From Actinomycetes bacterium (GTDB lineage Bacteria > Actinomycetota > CALGFH01), in contig DASYUT010000108.1 in assembly GCA_036000965.1 (NCBI GenBank), positions 1 to 64,000 of the forward strand: a DNA stretch of 64,000 nt, given 5' to 3'. Numbering within the stretch: position 1 is the first letter of the stretch; each line of letters begins with the position of its first letter. The notes under the pieces were generated by a model. The model made no database searches and was not told where the DNA came from. It saw only the letters and a program-made list of their open reading frames with translations. The position numbers were made by a program, and so were the translations under genes. Positions 25,343 to 42,612 of this stretch are shown piece after piece.

Positions 25343-25657
25343 GGCCTGTCCGATGGATCCGCCGAGTACCCCGACCATGGCACCGGCGCGCTTGGAGGGC
25401 CGTGGGGGACCGGCCCGACCATGGCACCGGCGCTGTTGGGGGGCCGTGGCGGCGGGATCGGCCGACCATGGCACCGGCGCTCTTGGGGGGCCGTGGCGGG
25501 AGCGTGTCCTGGTGCACCCGCGGCTCCCCCGTCCCCATGGCACCGGCGCTGTTGGGGGGCCGTGGGGGGAGCGAGCTCCCCCCACATCGAATGAGGACTC
25601 CGGTCAGCTGAGCTGCCGGCAACATCTTTCAGACACCCGTGAGAAGGAGCCAGTCAC
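25343..25657. other. Intergenic region with four 31-bp repeats, upstream of aspS
   Basis: 315 bases with repeats at 25375-25565, then an AT-richer stretch with the aspS ribosome site AGAAGGAG. No protein gene recognised. Confidence 0.6.
25375..25565. repeat. Four dispersed copies of a 31-bp element beginning CCATGG
   Basis: Copies at 25375-25405, 25419-25449, 25466-25496 and 25535-25565 run from CCATGGCACCGGCGC to GGGCCGTGG. Copies 2 and 4 are identical, 1 and 3 differ at a few bases. Spacers are 13, 16 and 38 bases and unrelated in sequence. Confidence 0.92.
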
Positions 25658-27439
25658 GTGAAACCCCTGCTGGGCGCCATGCGCTCGCACGCCTGCGGCG
25701 GCCTGCGGGTCACCCACACCGGCCAGGAGGTGCGCCTGGCCGGCTGGGTCGCCCGCCGCCGCGACCACGGTGGGCTCATCTTCCTCGACCTGCGGGACGC
25801 GTCCGGCGTCGTCCAGGTCGTCGTGCACCCCGAGCAGGCGCCCGCGGCCGCGGCAGCCGCCCACGAGGTGCGGACCGAGGACTGCGTCCGGGTGACCGGG
25901 ATGGTGATGCCGCGGCCGGCCGGCAACGAGAACCCGGACCTGCCCACCGGCGAGGTCGAGGTCCTGGCCAGCGACCTGGAGGTGCTCGCCCGCTCGGCCA
26001 CGCCCCCGTTCCCGGTCGAGGACCGGGTCGAGGTCGACGAGGTCCTGCGGCTGCGCCACCGGTACCTGGACCTGCGCCGCCCGGCCGGGCGGCGGGCGCT
26101 CGCGGCCCGGGCCAGGACCAACTCGGTGCTGCGCCGGGTCCTCGAGGAGCGCGGCTTCCTGGAGGTGGAGACCCCTTATCTGACCCGCTCCACGCCGGAG
26201 GGGGCGCGCGACTTCCTGGTCCCCACCCACCTGCAGCCGGGCCAGTTCTACGCTCTGCCCCAGTCACCGCAGCTGTTCAAGCAGCTGCTGATGGTGGCCG
26301 GCGTCGAGCGCTACTACCAGATCGTGCGCTGCTTCCGGGACGAGGCGCTGCGGGCCGAGCGGCAGCCCGAGTTCACCCAGCTCGACATCGAGTTGTCCTT
26401 CATGGACGAGGAGGACGTCTATGGGCTGAGCGAGGAGCTGATGGCCGCGGTGTGGCGCGAGGTCCTGGGCGTCGAGGTGCCGACACCGTTCCCGCGCATG
26501 CCCTACGCCGAGGCCATGCGCCGGTTCGGCTCCGACAAGCCGGACCTACGCTACGGCATGGAGCTGGTCGACCTCGGCGAGGTGTTCGCCGGCTCCGGGG
26601 TCGGCGTGCTGGCCGGGGCGCTCGAGGCGGGCGGCTCGGTGCTCGGGATCGTCGTGCCCGGCGGCGCGGACCTGACCCGCAAGCAGGTCGACGCCCTGTC
26701 GGGCTGGGCCAGGGGCCGGGGCGCCAAGGGCCTGGCCTGGGTGGCGGTCGAGCAGGACGGGCTGCGGTCGCCGCTGGACAAGTTCTTCTCCGAGCCCGAG
26801 CGGGCCGGGCTGCGCCGGGCGACCGGCGCGAGCCCCGGGGACCTGGTGCTCATCGTCGCCGACCGGACCCTGCTGGCCCAGACGGTCCTCGGCGAGCTGC
26901 GGACCCGGCTGGCGGCCGAGCGCGGGCTGGTGCCCGAGGGCCAGTGGGCGTTCCTGTGGGTCACCGACTTCCCGATGTTCGAGTGGGACGAGCAGGCAGG
27001 GCGCTGGGACGCGACCCACCACCCGTTCACCTCGCCCGCGCAGAAGTGGGAGGAGACCTTCCCCGACACCCCGGCCGAGGCCACCGCCCGCGCCTACGAC
27101 CTGGTCCTCAACGGCGTCGAGCTGGGCGGCGGGAGCATCCGTATCCACCGGGCCGAGGTGCAGCGCAAGGTGTTCGAGCTGCTCGGCATCGACCCGGACG
27201 AGGCCGAGCGGAAGTTCGGCTTCCTGCTGCGGGGGCTGTCGTTCGGCGCCCCGCCCCACGGCGGGATCGCTTTCGGCCTTGACCGGGTGGTGAGCGTGGC
27301 CCTCGGGGCCGACTCGATCCGCGAGGTGATCGCCTTCCCCAAGACCCAGTCCGGCTCCGACCCGCTGACCGGCGCACCCAGCGAGGTGGCGGACGAGCAG
27401 CTGGCTGAGGTCCTGCTGAAGCATCTGGCGAAGCCGTGA
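25658..27439 (+). CDS. aspS: Aspartyl-tRNA synthetase
   Basis: Charges tRNA-Asp (in actinobacteria often also tRNA-Asn). 593 residues, normal bacterial length. It has an N-terminal OB domain (SHACGGLRVTHTGQEVRL, DLRDASGVVQVVV), class II motif 2 in CFRDEALRAERQPEFTQLD, the bacterial GAD insertion in the middle, and motif 3 GIAFGLDRVV near the end. GTG 25658 has AAGGAG nine bases ahead. No gatCAB in view to judge whether it is non-discriminating. Confidence 0.97.
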   Translation: MKPLLGAMRSHACGGLRVTHTGQEVRLAGWVARRRDHGGLIFLDLRDASGVVQVVVHPEQAPAAAAAAHEVRTEDCVRVTGMVMPRPAGNENPDLPTGEVEVLASDLEVLARSATPPFPVEDRVEVDEVLRLRHRYLDLRRPAGRRALAARARTNSVLRRVLEERGFLEVETPYLTRSTPEGARDFLVPTHLQPGQFYALPQSPQLFKQLLMVAGVERYYQIVRCFRDEALRAERQPEFTQLDIELSFMDEEDVYGLSEELMAAVWREVLGVEVPTPFPRMPYAEAMRRFGSDKPDLRYGMELVDLGEVFAGSGVGVLAGALEAGGSVLGIVVPGGADLTRKQVDALSGWARGRGAKGLAWVAVEQDGLRSPLDKFFSEPERAGLRRATGASPGDLVLIVADRTLLAQTVLGELRTRLAAERGLVPEGQWAFLWVTDFPMFEWDEQAGRWDATHHPFTSPAQKWEETFPDTPAEATARAYDLVLNGVELGGGSIRIHRAEVQRKVFELLGIDPDEAERKFGFLLRGLSFGAPPHGGIAFGLDRVVSVALGADSIREVIAFPKTQSGSDPLTGAPSEVADEQLAEVLLKHLAKP

Positions 27440-27799
27440 GCGCACACCCGGGTGGGTGGGACGTTTGGCGCATCCGCGAGTACTAGGGAAAGCTAGGGTG
27501 AACTGACTAGCCTCGGCTTGCCCAGACCGGCTGACGGTGATTGAATACCGCTCGCGGCAGCGCCCGACGGTGTACGTGACCTGGCATTTCGTTTGCGCCA
27601 ACACTTCGACGTCGGGGACCGTGCTCACGGTCGCGGCAGGCACCCCTACCCGGGGTACCGGAAACGGCCGGGGCGGTCCCCACCCTGTTTTCTTCGTGAG
27701 AGCAGGTGCAAACGTCGACCAGGGACGGCACCGTGGAGCGCTGCCGCGCCACGTCCACCGGGGAGCGGTCGCCCCTGGGGTCACCGGTCCTCGGGCTGG
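27440..27799. other. Intergenic region between aspS and the ABC remnant
   Basis: 360 bases, noticeably less GC-rich at 27475-27620 than the flanking genes. It holds several TAG-rich hexamers (27484-27512) and a 19-bp tandem duplication at its right end. Short frames exist on both strands but none has a credible start site or composition. No RNA gene signature recognised. Confidence 0.4.
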
Positions 27800-27816
27800 T
27801 CACCGGTCCTCGGGCT
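27779..27816. repeat. 19-bp tandem duplication at the stop of the ABC remnant
   Basis: Exact copies at 27779-27797 and 27798-27816; each carries the TGA stop (minus strand) of the remnant gene. Confidence 0.9.
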
Positions 27817-28087
27817 GGGCCGCCTCCAGGTAGGCGGCGGCATGCAGCGTGAACAGCTCGGCGTAGGTCTGCCCGCGCCGTAGCAGCTCCTCGTGCGTGA
27901 CCGTCTCCAGGACGCGGCCGTCGCCGAGCACGTAGATGCGGTCGGCCGACAGGATCCGCAGCCCGTGCCGGACGAGCTGGGGGAGCCGCCTGACGTCGAC
28001 CTTGGCCTCGGGGTCGGGCTGGGTGTCGTAGATCGTCGCGGTCGGCTCCTCGACCGCCGGCTGGTCAGCAGGTTCCACATGCACCAC
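27800..28087 (-). pseudogene. Internally deleted ABC exporter remnant
   Basis: About 95 codons, in frame. The first ~47 residues (EPADQPAVEEPT..., then RRLPQLVRHGLRIL) resemble the cytoplasmic N-terminus of an actinobacterial ABC exporter. The remainder reads SADRIYVLGDGRVLETVTHEELL and YAELFTLHAAAYLEAA, which is the end of an exporter's nucleotide-binding domain (after the H-loop). The membrane domain, Walker A, signature and Walker B are all missing. So a deletion of well over 400 codons joined the ends in frame. Start uncertain (GTG 28087, 28084 or 28078). Unlikely to have transporter function. Confidence 0.65.
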
Positions 28088-28169
28088 CGATCGCTTCGTC
28101 GCGGGCCAAGGCCAGGCCGGCCCCGTTGCGGTACCCCATTCTCCCCGATGCACCCGACCCCGGCGGACG

Positions 28170-28175
28170 TAGGAT
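28170..28175 (+). promoter_or_regulatory. -10 box for a leaderless rarA mRNA
   Basis: TAGGAT ends nine bases before ATG 28185 with no SD between, again suggesting leaderless transcription. Confidence 0.5.
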
Positions 28176-28184
28176 GGGCCGGTC

Positions 28185-29624
28185 ATGGATCTGTTCAGTG
28201 CCCGGGCGGACGAGGAGGCGCGCGGCAGCGCTCCGCTCGCCGCCCGCATGCGCCCGCGCACCCTGGACGAGTTCGTCGGCCAGCGGCACGTGCTCGGCCC
28301 AGGCAGCGCGCTCCGCTCGCTGGTCGAGGCCGACGAGCTCCGCTCGGTGGTGCTCTGGGGGCCGGCCGGTACCGGCAAGACCTCGCTCGCCCACATCATC
28401 GCCGGCGCCACCCGCTCGAAGTTCGAGGAGCTGTCGGCCACCAGCGCCGGGGTCAAGGACGTGCGGGCCGTGCTCGCCGCGGCCCGGGAGCGGCTCGGCG
28501 CCCTCGGGCGGCGCACCATCCTGTTCATCGACGAGATCCACCGCTTCAACAAGGCCCAGCAGGACGCGCTCCTGCCCGGGGTCGAGGACCGCACCGTGGT
28601 CCTGGTCGGGGCGACCACCGAGAACCCGTTCTTCACCGTCAACGCCCCGCTGATGAGCCGCTCGCTGCTGTTCCGGCTCGAGCCCCTGGACGCCCGGGAC
28701 CTCGAGACGATCCTGCGCCGCGCCCTGGCCGACCCCGAGCGCGGCCTGGGCGGCAGCGGCCTCGCCCTGGACGACGACGCCCTCGCCCACCTGGTCGACC
28801 GGGCCGACGGCGACGCCCGCCACGGGCTGAACGCGCTGGAGGCGGCCGCCCTGGTGGTCGCCTCGCGAGGCGACCGGCGCATCGCCCTGGCCGACATCGA
28901 GGACGCCCTGCAGCGCCCCCGGGTGGTCTACGACCGCGCCGGCGACCAGCACTACGACGTCGCCAGCGCCTTCATCAAGAGCATCCGCGGCTCCGACCCC
29001 GACGCCGCCCTGCACTACCTGGCCCGTATGCTGGCCGCAGGCGAGGACCCCCGGTTCATCGCCCGCCGCCTGGTCATCTCGGCCAGCGAGGACGTCGGCC
29101 TGGCCGACCCGGCCGCGCTGGGGGTGGCGGTGGCCGCCTTCCAGGCGCTCGAGCTCATCGGGCTCCCCGAGGCCCGCCTCAACCTGGCAGAGGCGGTGGT
29201 CTACCTCGCCCTCGCGCCCAAGTCCAACAGCGCCTACCTCGCCCTGGCGGCCGCCCAGGCCGAGCTCGAGTCGGGCCGGCCCGGGCGGGTCCCCGGCCAC
29301 CTGCAGTCCGCCAGCCACCCGGGCGAGAAGGCCTTCGGCATCGGCGCCGGCTACGTCTACCCCCACGACCGGCCGGGCCACTGGGTGGAGCAGCGTTACC
29401 TGCCCGAGGGACTCCGGGGCGGCTACTACACCCCGTCGGACCAGGGGCGGGAGCCGCAGTTGGCCGACGCCTGGCAGCGACGAGGTAGACTGCGCGCTGC
29501 CGTACCGCCCAGCGATTCCGGGAAGCACCGGGCGGGCGGTCGCACGCCGCCCGAGCCGCCGGTCCGCCGGGAGGTGAGGCGCGCCCGACCGGACCCGCCC
29601 GACCCCGAGGAGCCGACCCCGTGA
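28185..29624 (+). CDS. rarA: Replication-associated recombination protein A (MgsA/RarA AAA+ ATPase)
   Basis: RarA acts at stalled replication forks. Of 479 residues, Walker A GPAGTGKT is at 59-66, Walker B ILFIDEIHRF near 107-116, and sensor region VGATTENPFFTVN follows. The C-terminal tetramerisation domain has YLARMLAAGEDPRFIARRL and SASEDVGLADP. The last ~50 residues form a Pro/Arg-rich tail beyond the normal end (..GREPQLA). Its stop overlaps the GTG of the next gene (GTGA). A rarA-to-alaS arrangement is normal for actinobacteria. Confidence 0.95.
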   Translation: MDLFSARADEEARGSAPLAARMRPRTLDEFVGQRHVLGPGSALRSLVEADELRSVVLWGPAGTGKTSLAHIIAGATRSKFEELSATSAGVKDVRAVLAAARERLGALGRRTILFIDEIHRFNKAQQDALLPGVEDRTVVLVGATTENPFFTVNAPLMSRSLLFRLEPLDARDLETILRRALADPERGLGGSGLALDDDALAHLVDRADGDARHGLNALEAAALVVASRGDRRIALADIEDALQRPRVVYDRAGDQHYDVASAFIKSIRGSDPDAALHYLARMLAAGEDPRFIARRLVISASEDVGLADPAALGVAVAAFQALELIGLPEARLNLAEAVVYLALAPKSNSAYLALAAAQAELESGRPGRVPGHLQSASHPGEKAFGIGAGYVYPHDRPGHWVEQRYLPEGLRGGYYTPSDQGREPQLADAWQRRGRLRAAVPPSDSGKHRAGGRTPPEPPVRREVRRARPDPPDPEEPTP

Positions 29625-34713: not shown

Positions 34714-35699
34714 GCATGCCCGTTGCCGCTGTGCTCGGCTGGCCGCTCGCGCACACCCTCTCCCCCCGGCTCCACCAGGCCGCCTACCAGGCCGCCGGTC
34801 TCCACGGCTGGCGCTACGAGGCCCGCCCGACCCGGCCCGAGGAGCTGCCCGCGGGGCTCGGGCTGGTCCGCTCGGGGGAGCTGGCCGGGGTCAACCTCAC
34901 CACCCCCCACAAGGAGGCGGCGGCGGCCCTGGTCGACCGGCTGGAGCCCCCCGCCGACGCGCTCGCCGCGGTGAACACGGTGTGGCCGGCGTACGGCGGC
35001 CTGGTCGGCGGCAACACCGACGTGGCCGGCGTGCTCTGGGCCCTCGACCGCCAGCTCGGACTGGCGCGCGGCGGCGACCCGGCCGTGCCACCCGGCGGTG
35101 GCTGGGACGGTGCCGGCTGGGACAGTGCCGGCTGGGACAGTGCCGGCTGGGACAGCGGCGGCTGGGACAGTGCCGACCCGGCCGTGCCACCCGGTGGTGG
35201 CTGGGACGGCGGCGGTCCGGCCGTGCTGCTCGGCACCGGCGGGGCCGCGCTGGCCGTCGCGCTCGCGTGGGCCCGCCTGGCCGAGGCTCGTGCCGGCCGC
35301 GCCCTGCCGACCAGCCCGCTCACCGTGGTCGGGCGCGACCCGGCCCGGGTGACGCTCGTCGCCCGCCTGGCCGGCCCCGGCGCGGCCAGGCTCGGCTGGG
35401 ACGCGGCCGCGGACCTGGTCGGCCGGGCAAGGGTGGTCGTCCAGGCGACCACCCTGACCGCCCGGGGCGAGCCCGTGCCCGGCCAGGACAAGCTCGTCCC
35501 AGGCGTCCGCCTGCTCGACCTGAACTACGGGCTGCACGCCCAGGGCCTGGTCGCCGCGGCCCGGGCCGCCGGGGCCCGCGCCGCCGTGGACGGGCTCGGC
35601 ATGCTCTGCGCCCAGGCCGCCGAGGCGATGACCCGCCACACCGGCGCCCGCGCCGACCTCGCGGCCATGGCCGCCGCGGTCGGCCTCGCCCTGCGGTAG
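34710..35699 (+). CDS. aroE: Shikimate dehydrogenase with repeat-encoded insertion
   Basis: AroE reduces 3-dehydroshikimate to shikimate with NADPH. 329 residues, about 50 more than usual. Substrate-domain residues are present: SPRLH, catalytic K68 in TTPHKEAA and D104 in GNTDVAGV. The nucleotide-binding loop is GTGGAALAV near 175-183. Between the two domains, residues ~121-169 are an insertion of Gly/Trp/Asp-rich repeats (GWDSA units) encoded by 15-bp tandem repeats. The insertion sits in the interdomain linker, where it may be tolerated. Start GTG 34710 overlaps mltG; ATG 34716 is also possible. Confidence 0.9.
   Translation: MSMPVAAVLGWPLAHTLSPRLHQAAYQAAGLHGWRYEARPTRPEELPAGLGLVRSGELAGVNLTTPHKEAAAALVDRLEPPADALAAVNTVWPAYGGLVGGNTDVAGVLWALDRQLGLARGGDPAVPPGGGWDGAGWDSAGWDSAGWDSGGWDSADPAVPPGGGWDGGGPAVLLGTGGAALAVALAWARLAEARAGRALPTSPLTVVGRDPARVTLVARLAGPGAARLGWDAAADLVGRARVVVQATTLTARGEPVPGQDKLVPGVRLLDLNYGLHAQGLVAAARAAGARAAVDGLGMLCAQAAEAMTRHTGARADLAAMAAAVGLALR
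35077..35214. repeat. 15-bp tandem repeats inside aroE, flanked by a 39-bp duplication
   Basis: Five copies of GGCTGGGACAGTGCC-type units from 35100 to 35175. A 39-bp unit beginning GACCCGGCCGTGCCACC occurs before (from about 35077) and after (from about 35176). All stay in frame. Confidence 0.9.
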
Positions 35700-35929
35700 G
35701 CCCTCCGGGTAGAGCCTGGGCGGTGCCTGATCGACATCCAATTGAACGACGAGCAGGTAGACGCTCTTGGTGCAGGTAGTTCGAGCGGGGGAGGAGCGAA
35801 TGACCATCCACAGGCTGGCCCTTCGCTAGGCTCGCCCTAATCGCGATGGTAGGTTCCACGCTCGCTCAAGCGGCCACGAACCCGGAGGTGTGAGCCTGTC
35901 ATGGAGCGCCGTCCACGTGCGGGCACGTG
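35700..35929. other. Left boundary of the accessory island
   Basis: About 230 bases, less GC-rich than aroE, marking a change of composition. It has TAGGCT at 35827-35832 and TAGGTT shortly after as possible -10 boxes, and an SD (GGAGG, 35884-35888) before a nine-codon ORF. No att site or tRNA was seen that would explain insertion. Confidence 0.4.
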
Positions 35930-35930
35930 A
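35901..35930 (+). promoter_or_regulatory. Nine-codon leader ORF coupled to the helicase stub
   Basis: ATG 35901 to TGA 35928-35930 encodes MERRPRAGT. Its stop overlaps ATG 35930 of the helicase-like frame (TGATG). This mirrors the eight-codon leader ORF before the RM gene at 2791-2765. Confidence 0.4.
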
Positions 35931-36265
35931 TGGCCGACCTCTGTGGGCAGGCCCGCAATCGTCAGGTCGAACTGCGTGGGCACTTCCCTGCTCCGGTGCG
36001 CATCGAGGTCGCCGAGCTGATCGGTGAGGACCTGTACCTCTTGCGAGTGCGCACCGTGGCCGGCGTGCCGGACGAGACCACGCTCACCGGCACCGAGCTC
36101 GCCGAGGCGCTCGACCAAGCCCCCGTCGCGATCTCCGTGGTCGCAGCTCAGGATCTCTTCCGCTGGGTCGAGAGCCATCGCATCCGGCTCGCGTTCGCCC
36201 ACGACCCCTGCTTCGCGGTCTCCCTCAGCGGCATCCGCGGGCTGCCCCACCAGATCGAGGCGGGC
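35930..36265 (+). pseudogene. N-terminal stub of an SNF2-type helicase
   Basis: About 112 codons. Residues 20-60 (PAPVRIEVAELIGEDLYLLR...TLTGTELAEAL) and especially IRLAFAHDPCFAVSLSGIRG followed by LPHQIEA match, from memory, the N-terminus of the large SNF2-family helicases found in DISARM-like and DUF1156/DUF499 loci. In those, LPHQIEAVY leads within ~20 residues to the Walker A motif. Here similarity ends at LPHQIEA (36262), and a promoter begins four bases later. No later part of the helicase is present. The frame stays open into the NYN gene, so a fusion protein is formally possible but less likely than a broken gene. Confidence 0.6.
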
Positions 36266-36293
36266 TTGACAGGGACGCCAGGGTCGCTACCAT
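36266..36293 (+). promoter_or_regulatory. Near-consensus promoter inside the accessory island
   Basis: TTGACA (36266-36271), 16-base spacer, TACCAT (36288-36293). The -35 is a perfect consensus, rare in this window. Transcription would start near 36300 and drive a short structured RNA and, by read-through, the NYN-DUF1156-DUF499 genes. Confidence 0.65.
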
Positions 36294-36299
36294 TGCCGT

Positions 36300-36377
36300 A
36301 TCAACCTCCCGCAGCGGAGTCAGCTTCGCTGCGTATTCGACCCCCGGGGAGCCCGCTGGCGGCTCCCCGTATCTTTT
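36300..36377 (+). ncRNA. Predicted ~78-nt structured RNA upstream of the NYN nuclease
   Basis: From the predicted start near 36300 the transcript forms two hairpins. The first is a 7-bp stem CGCAGCG/CGCTGCG (36310-36316 with 36327-36333). The second is a 9-bp GC stem (36345-36353 with 36361-36369) followed by TATCTTTT. It matches no RNA family I recognise. It could be a free small RNA, a transcription attenuator for the operon, or an antitoxin-like RNA for the nuclease. Presence of an RNA is inferred from promoter plus terminator only. Confidence 0.5.
36345..36377 (+). terminator. Intrinsic terminator/attenuator before the NYN gene
   Basis: Nine-base-pair stem CGGGGAGCC/GGCTCCCCG, seven-base loop, then GTATCTTTT... 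with four terminal Ts. It lies 27-33 bases before the NYN start, so most transcripts from 36266 may stop here. Confidence 0.6.
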
Positions 36378-36409
36378 GCCGCCTGGCGGGTCGAGGGAGG
36401 GGGGTGCGC

Positions 36410-37009
36410 GTGAACCGGGTCCGGGTCTTCATCGACTACTGGAACTTCCAGCTTGCCTGGAACCGGACCATCGGCAAGGGTTGCGACTGGCGAGAGTTGC
36501 CCCGCGCGCTCGTACGACACACCGGTGAACTCTTCGAGACGGTGGGTGCCGACGCGAATCTCACCCTTGAGCGGACGACCCTCTACGCATCGGTGGACCC
36601 GGACGCCGACGCCAACCTGCGTCGGTGGCTGACAGCAACCATCAGTCGCTTCCCCAGCTACACGGTCAGGGTGTATGACCGCCGCGCCCGCCGCGACTCG
36701 ATCCACTGCCGGCTCTGCAAGGTCGCCACCGGCGCCTGCCCGAACTGCGGCGAGCCCTACGTCCGCCGACCTGAGAAAGGTGTGGACAGTGCCATCGTCA
36801 CCGACCTCCTCTCCCTGGCCTGGGAGGACGCGTACGACGTGGCGATCCTCGTCACCAGCGACGCCGACTTCGTCCCGGCGGTCGAGCGCGTGCAGGAGCG
36901 CGGGGTCAAGGTGGTCAACGCCGCCTGGCGCCACCGCGGGCACGAGCTGCAGCGCACATGCTGGGCGAGCTTTGCCATCGACGAGATCGAGGAGGAGCTG
37001 TGCCGCTGA
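36410..37009 (+). CDS. NYN-domain ribonuclease-like protein with inserted four-cysteine motif
   Basis: 199 residues with the PIN-like NYN fold (LabA/DUF88 group), a family of metal-dependent RNases. The acidic site is intact: D9 in VFIDYWNFQ, D126 in KGVDSAIVTDLL, D151 and D153 in VTSDADFVPAVERVQERG. Unusually, CRLC (100-103) and CPNC (110-113) sit just before the second acidic motif, suggesting a zinc-ribbon insertion. GTG 36410 or GTG 36404 follows GGGAGGGGGG. It overlaps the DUF1156 start by ten bases, so the two are co-translated. By context a defence or toxin-like RNase; target unknown. Confidence 0.82.
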   Translation: MNRVRVFIDYWNFQLAWNRTIGKGCDWRELPRALVRHTGELFETVGADANLTLERTTLYASVDPDADANLRRWLTATISRFPSYTVRVYDRRARRDSIHCRLCKVATGACPNCGEPYVRRPEKGVDSAIVTDLLSLAWEDAYDVAILVTSDADFVPAVERVQERGVKVVNAAWRHRGHELQRTCWASFAIDEIEEELCR

Positions 37010-39672
37010 ACGGCCGCCGGCTGATCGAGGACGTGCTCCCGATCGAGGCGATCAACCAGGTCGCCCAGCGGGAGAAGATCGGACACGCCGCCCACCACCC
37101 CCGGAAGCTCCACCTGTGGTGGGCCCGGCGCCCGCTGGCCGCCGCGCGGGCCGCCGTGTACGCCGCGCTCGTGCCTGCCGAGGGGCGGGGTCGCACCCCG
37201 GCCGAGGAGGCGGCGTTCTTCACCGCCCTGTGCCGCTGGGGTGGCCCTGAGCGCACCATCGACCAGGCCCGGCAAGAGGTGCTCGCCGCCAACGGCGGCG
37301 TCCCCCCGAAGGTGCTCGACATGTTCGCAGGGGGTGGCGCGATACCGCTGGAAGCCGCCCGCCTGGGCTGCGAGGCCACCGCGGTCGAGCTGAACCCGGT
37401 CGCGCACCTGATCGAGCGCTGCATGCTCGAGTTCCCCCAGCGCTTCCCCGGCCTCGCCGACGACGTCCGCCGCTGGGGCCGCGTCTGGGTCGCACGCGCC
37501 TGGGAGCAGCTCGCCGACCTCTATCCGCCGGTCGGTCCGGGGAGCGGGCAGCAGCGGCTCGACAACGGCGCCGACGGGGGTGCCCGCCGTCCGCTCGCCT
37601 ACCTGTGGACACGCACGGTGCGCTGCCCCAACCCCGCTCTTGCCGAGCACCGTGTGCCCCTGGTGCGCCAAACCTGGCTCGCCCGCAAGCGCGGGCGTGC
37701 CGTCGCCCTGCGCACGGTCATCGACCGGGCCAGCCTGTCGGTGCGCTACGAATTGGCCGAGGCGGCGTCGGAGTCGGGCCTCGGCTTCAACCCCGCCGCC
37801 GGGTCCAGCCGCGGCCAGGCCACCTGCCCGATCTGCGGCGCCACGGTCGATGCCGACCACGTCAAGGCCGAGGGCGTGGCCGGCCGCATGGACGTCGTCC
37901 CTCTAGCTGCGGCGGTCCTCAAGCCGTCTGGCCGCGGCCGGGATTACCTGCCCGCCGGGTCCTACCCCCTCCCCGACGACGCCGAGTGCGACCGCCGGCT
38001 CAAGGCGCTCGATGTCATGCCGCTGGACGAGCTACTGCCGGCGAAGGATACGAAGAACTTTTGGGTGCCACAGTATGGCTTAACTCGCTTCCGTGACCTA
38101 TTCACCTCGCGCCAGCTTCTTACCCTCAGCACGCTCGCCGCAGGAGTCCGCCAGACGCACGAGGAGATGGTCGCGTCGGGGGTGGACGCGGAGCGCGCGG
38201 ATGCGGTGGCGTGTTGCCTTGGCCTGACGTTGGATCGTCTTGCCGACCGGGGCGGCACGCTGTGTCGGTGGGACGTGGGAAACGAGACTGCGATGAATAC
38301 GTTCGCACGCCAAGCCTTGCCCATGGTGTGGGACTTCGTCGAACCTGCACCGTTTGGTGGGGCTGCGGGCGATGCGAGCAGCAACGTAGACATCACTGCC
38401 GAGATCATGCAGGGGTTGGCCAACGTTCCGCGTCGGAGTGTGGTGATCCGTTCTTCTGCCACCTCACTGCCGCTTCCGGAAGCATCCCAGGACGCTGTCA
38501 TCACCGACCCGCCCTATTACGACAACATCAGCTACGCTGACCTCTCGGACTTCTTCTACGTCTGGCTCAAGCGCTCGGTCGGATTCCTCTATCCCGACGA
38601 TCTCGGCGGCGAGCTGGCGCCAAAGCGGAACGAGGCAGTGGTCGCGCCCTACCGCCACCACGGCGATCGGGGGGAAGCCCGCAGGTTCTACGAGCAAATG
38701 ATGGCGCGGTCGTTCGCAGAGGCCCACCGCGTGCTCAAGCCGGGCGCGCCGCTGGTCTGCATCTACGCCCACAAGACGACGCTCGGCTGGTCGACGCTGG
38801 TGGATGCGCTGCGGCAGGCTGGGTTTGAGATCACCGAGGCGTGGCCGCTGGACACCGAGATGCCCGCACGGTCGATCGGGCAGGGGACTGCAAGCCTTGC
38901 CTCCTCCATCTTCCTGGTCGCCCGGAAGCGGGCCCCCGGCGTCGCCCCCGGCGTCGAGGCAGAGGTCCTGGCGGAGCTGGACGAGGTTATCCGCGAGCGG
39001 CTGGATCGCCTTACCGAAGCGGGGATCTCCGGGTCAGACCTCGTCATCGCGACGGTCGGGGCGGGGCTGCGGCCGTTCACGCGCTACGAGCGAGTGGAGC
39101 GGGAGAACGGCGAGCCGCTCGACGCGGAGCGGTTCCTGGTGCTGGTGCAGAACCGCGTGCTCGATGCCATCTTCGGCGGGCTCGCGGGCGCCGACCCCGC
39201 CACCCGCTTCTACATCGCGGGCCAGTTCAGCTACGGCTATGGATCGGTGCCATTCGCCGAGGCCAATAACCTCGCCTACATGACCGGGGTGGAGCTGGAC
39301 GAGCCGCGCGGCCTGACCGCGGGCCGCAACCCGCTGGTTGCCAAGAAGGGATCCACCGTCGCCCTGCGCGACTTCGAGGAGCGCGGCTCCGACGCGCACC
39401 TCGGCGTCCCGGACGAGCTTGGACCGGGTCGCCCGCCGCTGATCGACGTCGCCCACGGCATCCTCTGGCGGGCCGAGTACCACTCCGGGGAGCTCAAGGA
39501 CTACCTGGCTGGTACCCGGCCAGACGTGGACCTGCTGCGCACCGTGATCCAGGCGCTCGCTGGCAAGGCGCTCCGCTCCAAGCTCGACAACGGCAAGGCG
39601 CCCGAGGCGGCCGCCGCAGAGCGCCTGCTGGTGTCCTGGCGCCGGCTGATCGACGACAACCTGTTCCGCTAG
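37000..39672 (+). CDS. DUF1156 DNA methyltransferase (anti-phage associated)
   Basis: 890 residues. The N-terminal DUF1156 segment has RKLHLWWARRPLAAARA. SAM-binding motif I is DMFAGGGAIPLEA from D107, with VELNPVAHL after it. A CPICG zinc-type motif lies near 276. The catalytic motif is DPPYYDNISYADLSDFFYVW from D503. This is an N6-adenine or N4-cytosine type DNA methylase. The family pairs with DUF499 ATPases and a helicase in loci annotated as anti-phage. GTG 37000 follows GAGGAGGAG and overlaps the NYN stop. The stretch coding residues ~348-520 (38040-38560) is clearly less GC-rich than the rest, hinting at mosaic origin. Confidence 0.88.
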   Translation: MPLNGRRLIEDVLPIEAINQVAQREKIGHAAHHPRKLHLWWARRPLAAARAAVYAALVPAEGRGRTPAEEAAFFTALCRWGGPERTIDQARQEVLAANGGVPPKVLDMFAGGGAIPLEAARLGCEATAVELNPVAHLIERCMLEFPQRFPGLADDVRRWGRVWVARAWEQLADLYPPVGPGSGQQRLDNGADGGARRPLAYLWTRTVRCPNPALAEHRVPLVRQTWLARKRGRAVALRTVIDRASLSVRYELAEAASESGLGFNPAAGSSRGQATCPICGATVDADHVKAEGVAGRMDVVPLAAAVLKPSGRGRDYLPAGSYPLPDDAECDRRLKALDVMPLDELLPAKDTKNFWVPQYGLTRFRDLFTSRQLLTLSTLAAGVRQTHEEMVASGVDAERADAVACCLGLTLDRLADRGGTLCRWDVGNETAMNTFARQALPMVWDFVEPAPFGGAAGDASSNVDITAEIMQGLANVPRRSVVIRSSATSLPLPEASQDAVITDPPYYDNISYADLSDFFYVWLKRSVGFLYPDDLGGELAPKRNEAVVAPYRHHGDRGEARRFYEQMMARSFAEAHRVLKPGAPLVCIYAHKTTLGWSTLVDALRQAGFEITEAWPLDTEMPARSIGQGTASLASSIFLVARKRAPGVAPGVEAEVLAELDEVIRERLDRLTEAGISGSDLVIATVGAGLRPFTRYERVERENGEPLDAERFLVLVQNRVLDAIFGGLAGADPATRFYIAGQFSYGYGSVPFAEANNLAYMTGVELDEPRGLTAGRNPLVAKKGSTVALRDFEERGSDAHLGVPDELGPGRPPLIDVAHGILWRAEYHSGELKDYLAGTRPDVDLLRTVIQALAGKALRSKLDNGKAPEAAAAERLLVSWRRLIDDNLFR

Positions 39673-39804: not shown

Positions 39805-42612
39805 ATGCCGAGCACCGCCTACCGCCTGGTTCCCTGGACCGACGTCGCGCAGCCCAACCAGGACGTGGCCGGCGGCGCGCTGGACATGGGGACCTACGCC
39901 GTCAACCTCGCGCGGGTGTTCCGGCGCAGGCCAGGCGTGCCGGACGTGTACGGCCGGCCGGACCGGTTCTTCGCCGCGACCTACTTCACCGAGAAGCTGC
40001 GCGAGCTGCTGACCGACGTGCTCGAGGTGCTCGCGGGCGGTCCGGGCGACCAGGTGCTGCAGCTCCGCACCCCGTTCGGCGGGGGCAAGACCCACACGCT
40101 GGTCGCGCTGCTGCACCTGGCTCGCGACCGGGACGCGGCGGCGGGGATCGCCGAGCTGGCGGGCCTGGCCGATCCTGGTCGCGTGCGGGTCGCCGTCCTC
40201 TCCGGCGAGGAGCTGGATCCTCTGGACCCGTTCCGGTCGGACGACGGGCAGGAGACGCATACCCTCTGGGGGGAGCTGGCTGCCCAGCTCGGCAGCTACG
40301 ACCTGGTCGCCGAGCACGACCGGACGGGCGTGGCGCCTGGCGGGGACCTGCTGCATCGCGTGCTCGGCGAGGGGCCGGTGCTGCTGCTGCTCGACGAGGT
40401 GCTGGTCTATGTCGAGAAGGCCATGGCGGTCGTCCGTGGGGACTCCACGCTGGGGCGGCAGGCGATGCTGTTCGTCCAGGCGCTGACCGAGGTGGTCAAC
40501 ACCCGGCCGTGCACCGCCATGGTCTACAGCTTGCAGGCCAGCGTCGGCGAGGCGGTCGGGGCGGAGGGCCTGCTCAGCCAGCTCGACCACCTGGTCAGCC
40601 GGATCGACGCCAAGAGGGAGCCGGTCTCCGGCGACGAGGTCATGCGGGTGGTGCAGCGGCGCCTGTTCGCCGACCCGGGCGACCCGGCCGTGCGCCGTGA
40701 GGTCGCCACGGCCTATGCCGACCTGATCGAGCGCCAACTCCAGGCGCAGGCCGAGACCGACGAGGGCAGGCGGGAGGCAGCGGTCGAGGCTCGGAGGCTC
40801 GAGGAGCGCATCCTCGCCTCGTACCCGTTCCACCCGGCGCTGCTCGACCTGATGTACCACCGCTGGGGCACGCTCCCGAGCTACCAGCGGACCCGGGGCG
40901 CTCTCCAGTTCCTGGCGAGCGTCATCCACGGTCTGTGGCAGCGAGGGAGCGACAGCGCGCTCATCGGCCCCGGTGAGGTGGACCTCAGCTACGAGCCGGC
41001 CCGGGGGGCGTTCTTCAGCCAGGTCGGCGAGCGCGAGCGCTACACCGCCGTCCTCGACGGCGACGTCGTCGCCGACGGCTCCGGCGCTGCCGTGGTCGAC
41101 AGGCGCATCGGCGCGGACGCCCCGGCGCTGGCGCAGCTCCGAGTTGGCACGCGCATGGCCACCGCGATCATGCTCTACAGCTTCGGCACGCGCGAGGGCG
41201 AGGAGAAGGGCGTGCTCGAGAGCGACCTCGTCACGGCGACGCTCGTACCCGGGCTGGACCGCAACGTCGTCGTTGCGGCCCTGCACGACCTGCGCGAGGA
41301 GGAGCTGTTCCTCCACTACACCGGCCGGCGGTACCGCTTCGAGCCGGTCCCGAACCTGACCAAGCTCGTGCGCGACGAGGCCAACAAGTTTCTGGCCCTG
41401 GAGGTCCTCGAGCGGGTCCGCGCCGCACTCGAGGAGGAGTTGGGCGACGCCCGGAATGCGCTCGTATGGCCGGACAGTCCCGAGAAGGTGCGCGACAAGG
41501 TGCCCGCGTTCACGCTCGCCTACCTGCACCCGGACTGGAGCCAAGGCGAGCAGCCACTTACCCGCTTCGTGGAAGGCACCCCCGGCCGGAGCCGTGACTA
41601 CCGCAACGCGGTCGGCTTCGTCCTGCCCGATGGCGCCCAGTTCGACCGCGCCCGGGCGTCCGCGCGCCTGCTGCTCGCGGCTGAGTCCCTGCTCAAGCGT
41701 CGGGCGCAGCTCGGTTTCAGCCCGGAGCAGGTCGCCGAGCTGAAGGAGAAGCTCGAGGGCGCCGAGCGCGACCTCGGCGCCACGCTCGCCCGGGCCTACG
41801 GCCGCGCCGTCGTGCCGGTGCGGGCGTCGAGCGGGTCAGGACCGTACCGGCTCGACGAGGTCGACCTCCGCTCCCTGCTTGCCGCCGGCCGCTCCCTCGA
41901 CCAGCGGGTCCGCGCCGCGCTCGAGCACCGAGTGTTCGACCACCTTACCGTCGACAAGCTGGTCGCGCTGGCCGGGCTGGGCCCGGACCGCCCGGTGGTC
42001 CGCTGCGCCGACCTGGTGGACTGGTTCTTCAGCTACTTCGAGTTCACCAAGCTGTGGAGCACCGCGGCGATCGCCGATGCCATCTTCCGGGGTGTCGGGG
42101 ACGGCCGGTTTGCGTATGCCACCGGACTCGAGGTCGTGTACGGTACCGCCAAGGTACGTGACCCGAAGCTCGTGCGCTTCCGGGAGCTGCTGCCGGTGGG
42201 GGAAATCGATCTGAGCGGCGACGCCGCGATCCTCACCGCCGAACTCGCCGAGTCCCTGGTCGCACCCCCACCCGTCGCCGGCGACGCCGGGCCGCCAGAA
42301 CCGGATGGCGACGGCTCTCAGCCGGGCGGCGACCTGTTCACGCCGCCAGCGCCGCCACCTCGCCCGGTCGGTCCGACCGACCGGATCACAACTCTTGCGT
42401 TGCGGGTACGGCTGGAGGGACGCGCGCTGTACGGCCTCACCCGAGCGCTCTCGTGGCTCCGCGAACACTCGAGCACGATGGACATCGAGCTCACGGTCCG
42501 CGTGCTCGCAAGGGACGAGGGCTTTCTGCGTAGTCAGCTCACCAACGGGGTCATCGAGCCGCTCGAGGAAGGTGGCGTCGACGACACCGACATCCACCTG
42601 GAACTCTCGTGA
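39805..42612 (+). CDS. DUF499 ATPase (anti-phage associated)
   Basis: 935 residues. Walker A is TPFGGGKTHTLVAL (core GGGKTHT from residue 93), Walker B is VLLLLDEVLVYVEKAM near 190-205, and a long helical region with PFHPALLDLMYHRWGTLPSYQRTRGALQ follows, typical of DUF499. The C-terminal third is more variable with a Pro-rich linker (about 820-850). DUF499 proteins accompany DUF1156 methylases and a helicase in defence loci; mechanism not established to my knowledge. ATG 39805 is chosen for its SD and because PWTDVAQPNQDVAGG matches the family start. Likely the last intact gene of the island. Confidence 0.87.
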   Translation: MPSTAYRLVPWTDVAQPNQDVAGGALDMGTYAVNLARVFRRRPGVPDVYGRPDRFFAATYFTEKLRELLTDVLEVLAGGPGDQVLQLRTPFGGGKTHTLVALLHLARDRDAAAGIAELAGLADPGRVRVAVLSGEELDPLDPFRSDDGQETHTLWGELAAQLGSYDLVAEHDRTGVAPGGDLLHRVLGEGPVLLLLDEVLVYVEKAMAVVRGDSTLGRQAMLFVQALTEVVNTRPCTAMVYSLQASVGEAVGAEGLLSQLDHLVSRIDAKREPVSGDEVMRVVQRRLFADPGDPAVRREVATAYADLIERQLQAQAETDEGRREAAVEARRLEERILASYPFHPALLDLMYHRWGTLPSYQRTRGALQFLASVIHGLWQRGSDSALIGPGEVDLSYEPARGAFFSQVGERERYTAVLDGDVVADGSGAAVVDRRIGADAPALAQLRVGTRMATAIMLYSFGTREGEEKGVLESDLVTATLVPGLDRNVVVAALHDLREEELFLHYTGRRYRFEPVPNLTKLVRDEANKFLALEVLERVRAALEEELGDARNALVWPDSPEKVRDKVPAFTLAYLHPDWSQGEQPLTRFVEGTPGRSRDYRNAVGFVLPDGAQFDRARASARLLLAAESLLKRRAQLGFSPEQVAELKEKLEGAERDLGATLARAYGRAVVPVRASSGSGPYRLDEVDLRSLLAAGRSLDQRVRAALEHRVFDHLTVDKLVALAGLGPDRPVVRCADLVDWFFSYFEFTKLWSTAAIADAIFRGVGDGRFAYATGLEVVYGTAKVRDPKLVRFRELLPVGEIDLSGDAAILTAELAESLVAPPPVAGDAGPPEPDGDGSQPGGDLFTPPAPPPRPVGPTDRITTLALRVRLEGRALYGLTRALSWLREHSSTMDIELTVRVLARDEGFLRSQLTNGVIEPLEEGGVDDTDIHLELS

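Follow-up and report, generated by a model that had tools for sequence, protein, structure and literature searches.

Organisation of the locus

The window, by which the whole stretch of 64,000 nucleotides analysed is meant, belongs to a draft genome (6.5 Mb, 358 contigs) and carries on its plus strand a compact predicted RNA gene directly upstream of a gene coding for a NYN-domain ribonuclease. The promoter of the RNA gene consists of a -35 hexamer TTGACA (36266-36271), present at the same position in most homologous loci, and a -10 hexamer TACCAT (36288-36293), separated by a 16-nt spacer. The predicted 5' end of the RNA is an 11-nt leading linker (TATCAACCTCC; 36299-36309) that follows the family consensus, and transcription is predicted to start at or near this linker because of its spacing to the -10 box. 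The linker is followed by a first hairpin unit (36310-36333; 10 pairs with a C-G closing pair, supported by compensatory changes), an internal linker repeating the leading one and fitting the same consensus (TATTCGACCCC; 36334-36344), and a second hairpin unit (36345-36369; 9 pairs, supported by covariation in held-out loci), which also forms the stem of the intrinsic terminator. A T-rich tail (TATCTTTT; 36370-36377), of the family form YATTTTTT, represents the predicted 3' end. The RNA gene is hence about 79 nt long (36299-36377), and its transcript would have the order linker-hairpin-linker-hairpin-tail. The sequence-only reading of this DNA had described the TTGACA and TACCAT boxes, the 16-base spacer, both hairpins, and the T-rich end, and all of their coordinates turned out to be exact to the base.

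The folding energy of positions 36299-36377 amounted to -38 kcal/mol, versus -24.4 +/- 3.2 kcal/mol in dinucleotide shuffles (z = -4.3; none of 200 shuffles reached an equal value). In addition, the RNA promoter was the sole promoter detected within 2 kb, where 0.1 would be expected. The occurrence of the same element before about 40 homologous NYN genes places it far beyond chance. No family match was found in Rfam at the gathering score, and relaxed E-values returned solely chance-level matches to other families.

The NYN ribonuclease gene (36410-37009) starts with GTG at position 36410, 32 bases after the RNA tail, and its start is preceded by a Shine-Dalgarno-like sequence (GGGAGGGGGG). 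It encodes a protein of 199 amino acids with a four-cysteine knuckle, which matched the Pfam NYN profile (6e-16) and the PADLOC profile HEC-09 (4.9e-14). The catalytic residues D9, D126, D151, and D153 are all intact; the four catalytic acids and the four-cysteine knuckle are conserved in the NYN family. The AlphaFold model of the protein (pLDDT 95.6) had its best fold matches in the PDB with 2qip and with the NYN domains of MARF1, not with ToxN, and the NYN family profile gave no sequence match among the PDB chains. The HEC-09 profile (PDLC04163), named after a Hma-embedded candidate (PMC12988326), was matched by all 36 NYN proteins of the family. The match of the window protein (4.9e-14 over profile positions 87-175 of 203) was weaker than those of core members (up to 1.9e-90), so that its family is likely a sister subfamily of HEC-09.

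The sequence upstream of the RNA gene (35930-36262, plus strand) is no mere spacer; it is what is left, at the 5' end, of a helicase gene of the HmaA type (SNF2) (PADLOC HmaA 9.1e-7, profile positions 22-112 of 1176). It covers the first 112 residues or so; its homology stops 4 bp before the -35 box of the RNA promoter, and the remainder of the helicase gene is missing. The RNA-NYN pair is thus located precisely where hmaA breaks off. The remnant shares 34% identity with another HmaA-like gene located on a different contig of the same genome. The reading frame 35927-37009 (360 codons) is open throughout, running from the hmaA remnant into the NYN gene, which is ascribed to chance in GC-rich DNA. 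A helicase-NYN fusion protein was considered and rejected, since the linking part is the RNA and the NYN gene possesses its own start and Shine-Dalgarno-like sequence. Further upstream, an aroE-like gene contains tandem repeats encoding GWDSA (35060-35190).

Downstream, an HmaB-type DUF1156 DNA methyltransferase gene (37000-39672, plus strand; PADLOC HmaB 8e-139) overlaps the NYN stop codon and lies outside the conserved RNA-NYN pair, and an HmaC-type DUF499 ATPase gene (39805-42612, plus strand; PADLOC HmaC 9e-105) is a neighbour only. HmaB and HmaC are thus represented, and HmaA solely by its 112-residue N-terminal remnant, which leaves the Hma set incomplete. Both hmaB and hmaC appear intact, pointing to a system that lacks a local helicase. 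A second HmaA-like helicase gene was noticed in the genome (L017; G000 contig C303, about positions 25500-28200, minus strand), with a frame change part-way and an adjoining AAA ATPase gene.

Conservation and covariation of the RNA

An alignment of the NYN family was scanned over GTDB genomes, which yielded 62 loci whose upstream regions display the same plan almost throughout. For example, the NYN gene of genome G175, encoding a protein 51% identical to that of the window, is preceded by the same promoter, hairpins, and terminator, and this RNA-NYN pair is located before a different defence system, of the type IIG/DISARM-like kind. At locus L024 (9219-9842), a gene for an ImmA/IrrE-like (capP-like) protease is found directly before an RNA-NYN pair and a IIG/DISARM-like system.

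A covariance model was trained on 15 loci (alignment A2), in which 12 of the 14 pairs had two-sided changes (none of 500 shuffles was as good), and was searched over 841 kb. At E <= 0.003, it matched 39 loci, each directly adjoining a NYN gene; no full-length match occurred away from a NYN gene in these 841 kb. The 24 matches that had played no part in training showed two-sided changes in all 14 pairs and had 97% of their cells paired, with 115 two-sided cells versus 33 +/- 5 in shuffled alignments (0/500) and 13-27 with slid partners. The outer pairs of hairpin 1 carried two-sided compensatory changes in five out of six cases in the training set and in six out of six in the held-out loci; for hairpin 2, these were found in all eight pairs of the held-out loci, with 98.9% of the cells paired. 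The held-out alignment was fitted to the covariance model and is hence biased towards structure, which is a small concern in view of the slid and shuffled controls and of stems with completely changed sequences. Furthermore, a strict scan retrieved a promoter plus terminator upstream of 22 of the 41 NYN genes of the family itself, versus 3 of 443 other genes of the same loci (p = 8e-24).

The link between RNA and nuclease is close to one-to-one. Whole genomes containing these loci (n = 21) had exactly one RNA match in 18 cases and none at E <= 0.01 in two, and genome G412 had a second, weak one. Across 397 genomes of the phylum, to which a Gaiellaceae bacterium (Actinomycetota) was also assigned, the sole other good match precedes a NYN fragment. 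Both the second G412 match and the one at G102/L085, being weak and devoid of a NYN gene, were set aside as probable chance matches. Judged by comparative sequence data, the RNA of the window is real and its fold is under selection. The proposal of the sequence-only reading, that the nuclease gene is preceded by a separate gene for a structured RNA equipped with a promoter and a terminator, is supported by the covariation and conservation of the hairpins in homologous loci, which were examined for precisely these properties and displayed both strongly.

Tandem hairpin units

Units were read by hand in 36 RNAs and each of them was verified in the sequence. Two hairpins were present in 27 of these RNAs and three in the other nine. 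Leading and internal linkers follow one common consensus, YATTANANYCC, usually of 11 nt, of which the final C is invariant (36/36 leading and 45/45 internal linkers, 81/81 in total); covariation cannot show in sequences as conserved as these. The hairpins usually have a C-G closing pair followed by YAT, and the last hairpin, followed by YATTTTTT, acts as the predicted terminator of the family. The RNA is therefore described as a tandem array in which a conserved, single-stranded linker of 11 nt separates the predicted hairpins. This corrects the initial impression that no repeated units were visible, as the window itself has two units sharing the linker consensus, and relatives up to three. 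An array of tandem units with an invariant linker is predicted to be suited to binding and processing by a nuclease.

Distribution and orientation of the RNA-NYN pair

The NYN tree comprises at least 14 named phyla. Among the NYN loci compared, Hma genes were located near the pair in two cases only, namely the window and locus L063, and most pairs reside among genes that, going by the beginnings of their protein products, have housekeeping roles. Plasmids of 6-12 kb carry NYN as a solitary gene: in L086 and L088, the covariance model detected the RNA before it; L089 shows a diverged copy of the RNA; and the RNA is divergent from the NYN gene in L087 and L090. The solitary plasmid copies, the housekeeping-gene settings, and the rarity of Hma genes indicate that the RNA-NYN pair is a stand-alone module. 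The initial framing of the locus as a NYN-DUF1156 association did not hold, in that the link of the pair to Hma/DUF1156 genes is incidental. No NYN gene of the window's family was encountered in phage records, and one IMG/VR contig (L006) carries such a gene.

The window and most loci have a bicistronic layout with one promoter. In contrast, the RNA of loci L051, L006, L087, and L090 is encoded on the opposite strand, divergently from the NYN gene and with its own promoter (TTGACG-17-TATATT in L051, TATAAT in L087 and L090). The RNA was detected by the model in L051 (E = 5.5e-4), L087 (0.013), and L090 (0.049), and was read by eye in L006. The NYN proteins of these four loci form one derived clade (support 91/83), of which no additional member besides L051 was found in 321 genomes of the class of L051. 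With a promoter of its own on the other strand, the RNA would act in trans, so that an attenuator acting solely in cis is excluded for this clade.

One-sided decay of the pair

All four catalytic acids were retained in each of the 31 RNA-bearing NYN proteins scored. Four NYN genes without RNA (L035, L036, L039, and L059) fall outside the RNA-bearing clade and have an altered active site, carrying T or K in place of D126 and E in place of D153. The exception is L041, which has intact acids and no RNA within the 154 nt held by its contig. Conversely, the RNA was present beside a broken NYN gene in nine loci (L026, L037, L049, L056, L060, L061, L063, L072, and L084), the breaks being in-frame stops, frame changes, or truncations, some of which may stem from faulty metagenome assembly. 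Cases of an active nuclease lacking its RNA are rare and those of an RNA lacking an active nuclease common, which agrees with the prediction for an antitoxin and disagrees with that for a pure cofactor. In the Acidobacteriota loci L035, L036, and L039, the NYN gene with altered acids forms a conserved pair with a following gene whose product resembles a TGS-domain or uridine-kinase-like protein. Locus L059 (1861-3277) harbours two tandem NYN genes, the first of which has altered active-site acids.

Proposed function of the RNA

The RNA gene and the NYN gene probably constitute a two-gene module in which the RNA acts as an antitoxin that holds the NYN ribonuclease inactive, a reading to which we assign a probability of roughly two in three. 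It builds on the conserved fold, the linkers, the pairing of one RNA with one NYN gene, the lack of dependence on the downstream genes, the opposite-strand cases, and the one-sided decay, all of them observed, and it would entail transcription, binding, processing, toxicity, and a trigger as predicted properties. A strong promoter of its own would supply the RNA in excess, the NYN protein would bind it at the linkers, which would probably also be the cutting sites, and the RNA would keep the nuclease in an inactive complex. In most loci, readthrough of the terminator would supply a small amount of NYN protein. If the supply of RNA stopped, upon phage infection or plasmid loss, free NYN protein would cut cellular RNA, so that the pair could serve defence or plasmid maintenance. 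In the present genome, the pair has come to lie where hmaA breaks off, before hmaB and hmaC. Precedents exist for parts of this scheme. Indeed, type III antitoxins are tandem repeats that are cut by their own toxin (PMC5086642), and a CRISPR-associated NYN nuclease cuts single-stranded RNA without sequence preference (PMC11346440). Similarly, RCd22, the RNA partner of AbiF, has two motif copies and neutralises the antiphage protein encoded beside it, both in cis and in trans (PMC12373285). Counting against the scheme, the type III antitoxins crystallised to date are pseudoknotted (PMC5086642), the units of the present RNA being read as hairpins.

The main rival explanation, held to be clearly less probable than the antitoxin reading, is that the RNA activates or directs the NYN protein as a cofactor or guide, as crRNA does for Cas nucleases. 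The strict one-to-one pairing, the action in trans, and the loss of the RNA together with the active site would fit a cofactor equally well, and the CRISPR-associated NYN nuclease acts in crRNA trimming (PMC11346440). Yet the RNA contains no variable, guide-like segment, as the linkers are constant and the stems do no more than covary; it persists intact beside nine broken NYN genes, which is unexpected for a pure cofactor; and the strong TTGACA promoters and terminator imply RNA in excess of protein. Less probable still is a leader acting in cis, either an attenuator or a NYN-binding site in the NYN mRNA that controls expression of the NYN-Hma operon. Most loci are co-directional and the last hairpin is a terminator located 10-60 nt before the NYN start, which speaks for such a leader, but the RNA has its own promoter and terminator in either orientation and persists beside broken NYN genes. 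Moreover, it is encoded on the other strand in two independent groups, one NYN clade and a second RNA family, so that the attenuator offered as an alternative in the sequence-only reading loses its ground as the main function.

The position of the element directly before NYN, hmaB, and hmaC, together with the Hma genes adjoining the pair of L063 and the definition of HEC-09 as Hma-embedded (PMC12988326), would suit a regulatory or effector RNA of the Hma/BR (DUF499) defence system; this explanation is largely refuted by the two-locus count of Hma genes given above, the other NYN loci being solitary or beside other systems, and is considered very unlikely. Finally, the site follows a truncated gene and might consist of ordinary terminator debris, i.e. 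the decayed end of a helicase operon with a chance promoter-like sequence. This deserves practically no credence, being refuted by cross-phylum covariation, fixed linkers, a single copy per genome located at NYN, and the enrichment of promoter plus terminator before the NYN genes of the family.

Comparison with known systems

The arrangement of promoter, short tandem-repeat RNA (units of roughly 34-40 nt), intrinsic terminator, and endoribonuclease gene is shared with the type III toxin-antitoxin systems ToxIN, CptIN, and TenpIN, including the Rho-independent terminator between RNA and nuclease gene (36345-36377 in the window) and the occurrence as solitary mobile modules on chromosomes and plasmids. 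Unlike these systems, the nuclease here is a NYN protein with a PIN-like fold and an acidic active site instead of the ToxN/CptN/TenpN fold, the linker and covarying stems are conserved instead of near-identical repeats, the terminator hairpin is also the last unit, and the RNA is divergent in some clades. Since the toxin fold is one of the defining features, the pair was not ranked as a type III member. The type III layout noted initially therefore stands as regards the order of promoter, RNA, terminator, and nuclease, but strict membership was not established; the pair can be called type III-like in logic, by analogy, with a putative neutralisation of the nuclease. With the AbiF/RCd22 system (Abi_2 protein and abiF-motif RNA), the pair shares a non-coding RNA that contains a structured motif twice and lies beside a protein gene; it differs in having a NYN instead of an Abi_2 protein, and the RNAs are unrelated, the abiF motif being absent from the Rfam matches. 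The CRISPR-associated NYN of the Bacteroides fragilis Cmr system (PMC11346440) likewise is a NYN nuclease alongside an RNA-based defence, but it works with CRISPR arrays and has no dedicated hairpin RNA gene. As for the Hma or Type-1 BR (DUF499) systems (PMC8565338, PMC12839542), hmaB and hmaC are directly downstream in the window, whereas only some 110 residues of the helicase remain and Hma genes are lacking around most RNA-NYN pairs.

To our knowledge, few nuclease families are known to have an RNA antitoxin. A literature search, with preprints and most subscription journals outside its scope, retrieved no paper describing an RNA partner of NYN or HEC-09. The conserved RNA fold beside NYN genes in at least 14 phyla suggests a hitherto unrecognised RNA-toxin pair. 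If confirmed, it would represent a new RNA-antitoxin nuclease family on the NYN fold, found in at least 14 phyla as well as on small plasmids and comprising an RNA absent from Rfam, and HEC-09, a candidate antiphage gene, would gain a missing second component. Consequences may also be practical, as cloning of a NYN gene without its RNA may fail or mislead, and the divergent loci would offer a natural means of separating the function of the RNA from regulation of the mRNA.

RNAs in the wider HEC-09 family

Core HEC-09 NYN genes were drawn around Desulfatibacillum, a member of another phylum. Nearly all of them are preceded by a TTGACA-type promoter, two hairpins, and a terminator, of which the sequences differ from the RNA of the window; the strict scan retrieved promoter plus terminator before 13 of 27. 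The covariance model (R2) gave no match to the RNAs of the core members, which are therefore regarded as separate RNA families, and the RNAs of the wider family had no match in Rfam. These families were recognised by eye, except for one that was tested for covariation and displayed two-sided changes in 14 of 17 pairs. In RNA family D, the RNA is divergent from NYN in L104 and L105 and co-directional in L106, representing a second switch of orientation. HEC-09 as used in PADLOC thus resembles the present pair in that the NYN protein matches its profile and that core members also have promoter, hairpins, and terminator before NYN; it differs in being defined on the protein alone, with no RNA component, and the window RNA belongs to a different family from those of the core members.

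A more general proposal is put forward tentatively and with less conviction than doubt, namely that HEC-09-type NYN proteins form a general RNA-antitoxin class in many phyla, whose RNAs fall into three, four, or more unrelated families, some of them divergent and trans-acting, and that in the window the pair replaces the helicase-nuclease effector of a DUF499 (Hma/BR) system.

Several unrelated two-hairpin RNAs can be seen at the loci of the core HEC-09 NYN genes (L104-L131), one family of which is characterised by a GGUUUCGACC loop.
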